Below, in pieces: positions 29,601-32,600 of a stretch of 64,000 bases of DNA. Positions within the stretch are counted from its first letter, which is position 1, and every line of letters begins with the position of its first letter. A program made the position numbers and the translations under genes. The notes under the pieces were generated by a model, which was not told where the DNA came from, did not search any database, and saw only the letters and a program-made list of their open reading frames with translations. The DNA is from Liolophura sinensis (lineage: Eukaryota > Mollusca > Polyplacophora > Chitonida > Chitonidae): the NCBI RefSeq assembly GCF_032854445.1, contig NC_088295.1, positions 2,298,501 to 2,362,500 of the forward strand. The letters are read 5' to 3'.

Positions 29601-32600
29601 GTATGTTGGTGATATACAGCACAGTGGTAATCTTAATGTGGGTGAAAAGATGCACAAGTGTATGTTGTTGATACACAGCACAGTGGTAATCTCAGTGTTG
29701 GTGAATAGATGCACAAGTGTATGTTGTTGATACACAGCACAGTGGTAATCTCAGTGTTGGTGAAAAGATGCACAAGTGTATGTTGTTGATACACAGCACA
29801 GTGGTAATCTCAGTGTTGGTGAATAGATGCACAAGTGTATGTTGTTGATACACAGCACAGTGGTAATCTCAGTGTTGGTGAATAGATGCACAAGTGTATG
29901 TTGTTATATAGCACAGTGGTAATCTCAGTGTGGATAAATAGATGCACACGTGTATGTTGTTATATAGCACAGTGGTAGTATTACATGCAGCCTGAACCCA
30001 TCCACTGACCACATTTGGCAGATTACACCATGTTACCACAAACTACTTGACAATCTAGGCTCATGCTACATGTAACTATACCCTCCACCGTGTTCATATT
30101 TTGATAACAAATGCTCAATTCTGTGACACTTCTGTCCTCAAAGCGACAAAGGGTGAATGGGACTGAGCATGTTGGTTAGGGATGACCTTTGGAGTATTAG
30201 AGGTGGTCTCTGGGGTGGAAAAAGCCTGGGCATTGGGATAGGATGAACAAACTCTGAAGACATTCAAATTGGTAGTTGGTTTTACAGGAACACTAAAACG
30301 ATCATATTCCAGCTACATGTATTTGTTTGTGGCCAAAGGGGATACCATGCATATAATCTTCTCAGTTCTAGCCAGTTAGCACAAGGCACATGACCCTATT
30401 AGAACAGGGTTGGTGAGAGGTTATGTGCTAGAAATGTCATTTAGACACCTACACATATACAGACAATTTGAATCTTAACTTCTACTTGGAGTGGAATGGT
30501 AATCTCAGTTTATAATATCACAGTTTAACGTGCTTTCTGTGGTCTCTTGTTCTTCACAAACAATTTTGAAATACTGACACACACTCAGTGAAGCAAAAGA
30601 AGTATTGTTTGTTTGGATAAAACTTCAACTTCACCGAGCGGAATGCATCTGTTCCTTAAGTGAGCCACAGCATGGGGATGCCTGGAATTTGTTCTAACAT
30701 CACATCATGGAGCAATAACTCACAGCAATTTTGGCTTCAAAATTTTCTGATGGGACAATAGGAATAGCACCTCCATCCCTACCAAACTTCCGCTCTAAAG
30801 ATTTCTGTACGCTCTCTGTAAATACACAAAAGTGTTAGTGCAACATTCAACAAGTATTAGCAAGTTGTGGATATATACAGGTAAGTAAGGTGTTGATTAA
30901 AGATAGATAGATAGATAGATTTAAACATACATGTACATGAAGTTGTTAGACAGGGGTTGATCCAGAGACATACATGTAGATTGGTCACCTTTAGAGAACA
31001 TTTACTGACTCATACCATTTACAGGTTGGCTCATACCATATACCAGCCGCTCCCAAACTAAACCACAGATGTGGAAGTAATTTTGTCAAACATGATATGT
31101 TATACATGTTGTTGTTCTAGGTGACACAATTGAGGTAAATGAATGGCTGGATCAACCCCTGGTTGATGGGTGCATCCATGGGGCACATTTCCTGGATACT
31201 GAAACTCACTGCTATGCGTTTTTCAAACGCCTCAGAAGCAACTACTGGAATTGATCCACCATTTCTACCAAATTTCCTTTCTAGAGATTTCTGGACACTC
31301 TCTGAAAGATAAAGGATACACTGAACACTGAATTCCAGTAAGTGTTTTCTCTTTCTTCACCATGATCTTCGTTGTGACTACAGAGATGCCCACACAAAAA
31401 TACTAACACAGGAGAGAACAACTGTCTAAACAAATGAAAACTTGGATGTGCTATACTTTTTCAAAAGCTCTGAACACTTTGCTGGCTGAAATTGAAATTC
31501 TTGACAACCAGTCACATTAGTTCAACCATCTGAGGCTTTATGTCAAATAGGTAACATGTTCTGCATGGCATCTTGCAACCTGCAGATAATCAGTTTACTT
31601 GTTACCCAAATTAAATCAACTCATCTAGACTGAAGTCTTGCCAAACTGTATCCATCAAAATTTATGGAATGTGAATTTAGAGTAAGCATGTATCTCAGAA
31701 AATAAACTGAAAAGGTTTTAGGTATATACAATAGAATGGCCAACATGTACAGTTCTCGAAGGAATCCCAAAACAACTGGTTCTATATTTCAATACATGAT
31801 ATGTACACCACAAGGGTATCCATACATTTATTGGCACATTAAGGATTTGACAGCAACAGCTAGTTGCTCAGGTATATACCCCCTTCAGCCTTCCTAAAGA
31901 ACTGAAATGCTGAAAACAAACGAATTAGGCAGGTTTTCCAGGTACCTTTTTTATCTTCCTTATACAAAAAAACAGAACAGTAAAACCAAGAACCACCTGT
32001 TTTCATAATACAAAACACATACACCTTTGTGGCAATTCTTGTCAAGACAACACACTGTAGGACAGTTAATACCTTCAGCTACACTTTTATTTTTTTGTCA
32101 GTTTTACAAAGCACAAGGAAATGTTATACACATGTACATACATGTAATGCTATGGATGCCATGTATGTGACCCAGCAATCATTACAGATTGCTAGTGACA
32201 CATGGTCTTACCTAGGAGATGGTAGTTGGAGTCCTTCTCATACTTAAAGGTGAGTCTACCGTAACTAACATGGTTCAGGTTCTTCAGCCACTCAAAGTAG
32301 GAAACTGTCACACCTCCGGCGTTGATGTACAGATCCTGGCCACAAATAAGCAAAGTACAGTTGAAGACTGCATGTGAAGCCAAGTGCAGCAGGCCACGTG
32401 CGATGCACTACTGACTTTTATCAAGCATAAAATTAAGGCAAAAAAAAAAAGTTTTATGAGCAGTGGCAATGATGTTTTTTTGAAACACCAAAAGAAAATT
32501 ATCTGATGAATTAACAGAATTCATATACTGTTTCTGCTTTAAATGTGTTTGTTTTGGTCACCAAATGGAACACCACTCTGTGAGCAAACTTCTGCCATAG

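Follow-up and report, generated by a model that had tools for sequence, protein, structure and literature searches.

Tandem-duplicated mutually exclusive exons are neighbouring homologous exons of equal length and phase, one of which is to be used (PMC9013439, PMC9741552, PMC6071210). A frame break on joint inclusion or joint skipping is common in such exons, but not universal. In the docking/selector class of these exons there is competing pairing between introns. The word dehydrogenase is absent from the searched passages of PMC9013439 and PMC9741552. The nearest published case that we have seen is exon 10 of the alternative oxidase of Crassostrea virginica, also a molluscan gene for a mitochondrial metabolic enzyme, in which tandem exon duplication gives two forms of equal size (PMC5589949); the 'duplicated exon' mentioned in a passage of PMC9951329 is a citation of that oyster paper.

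The literature on regulation of the antenna of glutamate dehydrogenase (GDH) that is cited here deals with mammalian enzymes, in which two forms are made from two genes. Human GDH1 and GDH2 (GLUD1 and GLUD2) differ at antenna residue 443, which is Arg in one and Ser in the other (PMC5372004, PMC10812971). Arg443 of human GDH1 is located in the small descending helix, where it has been modelled as forming a bond to Ser409 of the opposing monomer. Replacement by Ser lowers basal activity and abolishes activation by leucine, and low concentrations of ADP lift the Arg443Ser mutant to the hGDH2 baseline and permit an effect of leucine; improved catalytic properties have been described for Ala445-hGDH2 (PMC5372004). 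The most important properties of GDH2 are reported to have come from Arg443Ser together with Gly456Ala (PMC10812971). By itself, Arg443Ser is considered too disruptive to account for hGDH2 (PMC5372004, PMC10812971), and the mutant has been described as essentially inactive (PMC10812971). A review of animal GDH forms gives a gorilla GDH1 sequence without the stretch between Leu467 and Gly499 (PMC5192433); by numbering, this gap would be the exon unit discussed below (human mature residues 415–445). Judged by title and the start of the abstract, none of the open-licence papers found describes GDH exons that can be exchanged for one another.

The DNA analysed here, referred to as the window, is a stretch of 64,000 nucleotides from the chiton Liolophura sinensis. 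It contains an apparently single-copy GDH gene. An ancient tandem duplication probably gave this gene two versions of exon 10, 10a and 10b, which are both retained as mutually exclusive coding exons and give subunits differing in regulation. At the level of sequence the pair shows the tested features of tandem-duplicated mutually exclusive exons, namely adjacent homology, splice sites and phases, frame logic and joint constraint. The splicing would be of a kind already known, here in a gene for which the open-licence literature searched gave no such report. Like the exon pairs already described (PMC9013439, PMC9741552, PMC6071210), the two GDH exons are homologous neighbours of equal length and phase, and they also show the frame break; in contrast to the docking/selector class, no competing intron pairing was detected in a blunt shuffle test. 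In the oyster gene it is the final exon that is duplicated, both variants have been measured and a switch occurs under air exposure (PMC5589949), whereas the duplicated exon of the chiton GDH is internal and is known from sequence alone. As in human GDH1 and GDH2, the two chiton forms differ at residue 443, but here the difference is between two exons rather than two genes and is Arg/Lys rather than Arg/Ser; Gly456Ala, the other change in GDH2, falls outside the region that matches chiton exon 10 (PMC5372004, PMC10812971). The corresponding exon is absent from the gorilla GDH1 sequence (PMC5192433), while in the chiton it appears to be exchangeable.

The GDH gene and its genomic context

A tblastn search with human GDH1 placed the exons in order along the minus strand of the window, from 43 to 26.5 kb (Table 1). 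The predicted protein matches residues 100–504 of human GDH1 (1l1f), the long antenna included (E 2.5e-227); the predicted product is thus an animal-type GDH with an antenna.

Table 1. Features of the GDH gene, in coordinates of the window
Feature	Position	Strand	Details
Coding exons 1–4	43184-42746, 41836-41636, 40975-40889, 40194-40106	minus	canonical splice sites
Coding exons 5–8	39640-39541, 39063-38926, 37534-37394, 34208-34128	minus	canonical splice sites
Coding exons 1–8, whole span	34128..43184	minus	
Constant exon 9, ascending antenna, with Ser409 (human numbering)	32212..32335	minus	
Exon 10a	31210..31301	minus	92 nt, phase 1 in, phase 0 out, Arg at human 443
Exon 10b	30724..30815	minus	92 nt, phase 1 in, phase 0 out, Lys at human 443
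Intron between 10a and 10b	30816..31209	minus	394 nt
Hairpin inside the 10a–10b intron	30951..31161	minus	perfect 15-nt arms 31161-31147 and 30965-30951
Constant exon 11, GASEKD pivot region	28377..28439	minus	
Exon 12, last coding exon, TAA at end	26562..26681	minus	

The whole genome (609,464,459 bases in 632 contigs) was searched with the protein. All 12 matches at E<=0.1 fall in this gene, one for each of exons 2–12 with exon 10 matched exactly twice. Both genomic matches to Pfam PF00208 are likewise within the gene, and exon 10a, searched as DNA, has no match other than itself. Neither a second GDH gene nor a third copy of exon 10 was found in the genome, in a search that scored only the best candidates and that a very divergent gene could escape.

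At the join between exons 4 and 5 (40106 / 39640) the gene as assembled is one base off frame in either isoform, with canonical splice sites. Exon 5 begins with a run of four G and supplies one surplus base after exon 4, and strict splicing leads to a stop after 299 aa. All full-length isoform readings given here start exon 5 at 39639, which holds the frame. The published assembly was built from 14-fold HiFi coverage (PMC11068029), and because of this depth a consensus error at the join is possible; a real allele is also possible.

Several repeats lie within the gene. At 39025-39368 the last part of intron 5 and the opening 42 nt of exon 6 are present twice, as a 172-bp tandem duplication with 98% identity, which creates a decoy acceptor whose frame reaches a TGA after 14 codons. 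Intronic minisatellites occupy 28864-29977 (unit 59 nt, 19 copies), 32569-34042 (unit 53 nt, 28 copies) and 26736-27259 (unit 26/53 nt). Elsewhere in the window, pieces resembling a non-LTR retrotransposon are found in separate frames at 51210-53949 on the minus strand, with matches to Exo_endo_phos_2, RVT_1 (two pieces) and RNase_H. An open frame at 49418-50050, also on the minus strand, has a GDSL lipase match (PF13472, E 4.8e-10). Long overlapping open frames of up to 610 aa are present on both strands at 17671-21715, and three of them gave either no Pfam match or DUF matches without any stretch that passes alone. Outside the window, the mitochondrial genome is present on contig C99 as a head-to-tail concatemer with a unit of about 15.5 kb and seven COX1 copies spaced about 15.5 kb apart; one further COX1 copy is on contig C632. 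With names assigned by eye from the translations, cox3, nad3, nad2, cox1, cox2 and atp6 are on one strand and nad1, nad6, cob, nad4L, nad4 and nad5 on the opposite one, a split on C99 that agrees with the one described for Liolophura (PMC12111177).

Structure and frame logic of the exon pair

The first-pass annotation of this DNA had described 10a and 10b as two 92-nt exons with the same phases, AG acceptors and gtgagt donors, and every one of these points was confirmed, along with the coordinates. The acceptors are tttatctttcag in 10a and gtgtatttacag in 10b, and the donors GCA/gtgagt and GCT/gtgagt, respectively. Both donors lack a G at position -1 and score 1.98 (10a) and 1.79 (10b) against an approximate consensus; of the 12 donors in the gene model, just those of exons 2 and 6 have lower scores. 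Each exon encodes 30 residues after a split Glu codon. Of these whole codons 23 of 30 encode identical residues, a slight correction of the 22 counted at first; with the codon split with exon 9 included, 24 of 31 residues are identical, as are 61 of 92 bases.

It had also been proposed that full-length GDH is produced only by using one exon at a time, and the reconstructed transcripts agree. Form a, with 10a alone, and form b, with 10b alone, are full length at 557 aa each, while both other combinations break the frame. With both exons included, the reading frame ends after 503 aa at a stop located 134 nt ahead of the last junction; skipping of both shifts the frame, with no stop inside the coding exons. 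The stop of the doubly included form lies far enough upstream of that junction for nonsense-mediated decay to be expected. As predicted from the exons, then, exactly one of 10a and 10b at a time holds the frame. Each productive transcript would take 10a or 10b, transcripts including both would meet the early stop and be removed by nonsense-mediated decay, and those with neither would lose the end of the antenna and the pivot, their frame being shifted.

Intronic hairpin and mechanism of exclusivity

The hairpin in the intron between 10a and 10b has arms that pair perfectly over 15 nt, compared with no more than 12 nt in any of 150 shuffles, and one of the arms sits 49 nt past exon 10a. Folding of the 211-nt hairpin gave -71.6 kcal/mol (z -5.17, 0 of 200 shuffles), a value for bounds that were picked after the hairpin had been seen. 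Its arm occurs four times in 609 Mb, two of these being the hairpin itself. The other two copies have a best partner of 10 or 11 of 15 bases within their 3-kb loci; with four genome copies, of which these two are unpaired, the arm is not a common transposon end. These properties would suit a hairpin that controls exon choice, for instance one that masks the 10a donor and the 10b acceptor or sets their spacing. As an account of the mechanism only, this is nevertheless unlikely: perfect inverted repeats of at least 15 nt are present in 2 of 80 sampled 394-nt stretches of the window, the fold of the whole 394-nt intron (-99.45 kcal/mol) has a z of only -2.87, and both arms are within one intron with no exon between them, so that exclusivity is not explained by the hairpin on its own.

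A high-copy transposon was considered as the source of the hairpin and rejected: a 226-nt stretch matches only itself, in a search that skips very common words, and the arm is found four times in the genome. An old single insertion is a possible origin. Another genome copy of the 15-nt arm adjoins GGTTCGAATCC (about 1480-1515 of its locus), which we take to resemble a tRNA B box, perhaps that of a SINE.

Pairing between introns of the docking/selector kind showed no excess over shuffles in five tests, in which 18/40, 22/31, 30/40, 38/40 and 23/40 of the shuffles paired as well or better; the test is a blunt one, with the minisatellite part of the intron between 10b and 11 excluded. Steric exclusion is also unlikely, the 394-nt intron between 10a and 10b appearing too long for it. 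The most economical mechanism would be one in which trans-acting factors choose between two near-equal weak exons and decay removes the transcripts that include both.

Position in the antenna and residue 443

The pair had been placed where the antenna runs into the GASEKD pivot, and alignment to human GDH1 confirms a position in the descending antenna, ending right before GASEKD, with exon 10 corresponding to human residues 415–445. The two exons differ at seven residues, at human positions 428, 431, 434, 436, 439, 442 and 443. At 443, 10a has the residue found in human GDH1 and 10b does not. Residue 442 is Asp in human, Lys in 10a and Ala in 10b; residue 436 is Ala in 10a and Pro in both 10b and human, and residue 445 is Ala in 10a and 10b alike.

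Beyond the chiton, no GDH relatives were found among viral contigs. Bacterial genomes hold at least 80 GDH loci among the matches listed, of which 24 were taken and 22 aligned. In 17 to 20 of these 22 the alignment is gapped at human residues 428–433, so the bacterial enzymes are uninformative on residue 443. Many of the bacterial GDHs are from Bacteroidota, and they have an antenna-like stretch that is shorter than the antenna of the chiton and aligns with it everywhere but at about human 428–433.

The choice of exon would give subunits with seven differing residues in the descending antenna, and the two isoforms are expected to differ in antenna contacts; the size and direction of any kinetic difference are inferred. 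In human GDH1, Arg443, modelled as bonded to Ser409 of the opposing subunit, supports basal activity. With Arg443, the 10a form would be expected to be the more constitutively active enzyme, and the 10b form, with Ala442 and Lys443, would be expected to show altered basal activity and altered dependence on ADP and leucine. The direction of this prediction is weakly grounded, because Arg443Ser alone cannot explain hGDH2 and that mutant is essentially inactive. Arg to Lys is a mild change, after which the bond to Ser409 may persist, and since it is milder than Arg to Ser the switch between 10a and 10b may perhaps be a fine adjustment.

The mildness of most of the residue changes, with 23 of 30 kept, is what would be seen if both exons were used singly to make isoforms that are alike, the arrangement being one of dosage control in which frame-breaking inclusion or skipping acts as a brake on the level of GDH. 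The early stop of the a+b form, 134 nt ahead of the last junction, and the weakness of both donors on the approximate score also fit such a brake. However, the neighbouring differences at 442–443 fall in a regulatory helix, with one more at 436, and a brake would need no two preserved coding exons, which makes this explanation distinctly improbable. With two old and well-conserved versions of the exon for its regulatory arm, the gene probably codes for two enzymes that differ in regulation.

Age of the duplication and constraint

The 31 bases of 92 that differ between 10a and 10b are distributed 9/3/19 over codon positions 1/2/3. By the Nei-Gojobori method pS is 0.907, which is saturated and beyond correction, and pN is 0.161. 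When the 31 differences were placed at random 20,000 times, a mean of 12.6 of 31 residues remained identical and the maximum was 21, so that no placement reached the observed 24. A stop-free reading alone is not telling, because 38% of random placements are also free of stops. A substitution pattern showing loss of constraint in one exon had been set out in the first-pass annotation as evidence against its reading; constraint, computed on the exon pair jointly, was seen instead. Identity to human GDH1 is 18/31 for 10a and 19/31 for 10b, and with both about equally close neither looks like a decayed copy. The simplest reading of these comparisons would be an old duplication of which both copies have been constrained since, the constraint again being that of the pair taken jointly. 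That one exon is in present use and the other is a relic still looking intact would fit the presence of a frame fault elsewhere in the gene as assembled, but it is very improbable indeed, as an unused exon would hardly have kept its residues, its frame and both its splice sites while synonymous sites became saturated, barring recent disuse.

Implications

A long-standing duplication with both exons in mutually exclusive use, the reading preferred here, would have consequences for the study of GDH beyond the chiton. The exon switch at residue 443, within a single gene, would allow the part played by the antenna in setting basal activity to be studied in an independent natural experiment. It can tentatively be suggested, as a possibility more doubtful than the existence of the two forms, that chitons switch by splicing between a constitutive (Arg443) and an ADP-gated (Lys443) GDH, by tissue or with tidal stress. 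If the pair is used as proposed, a central enzyme of nitrogen metabolism would be under the control of splicing in an intertidal mollusc. Position 443 is also where a change from Arg to Ser helped to make ape GDH2, and chitons would then alter by splicing the same residue that apes altered by means of a second gene.
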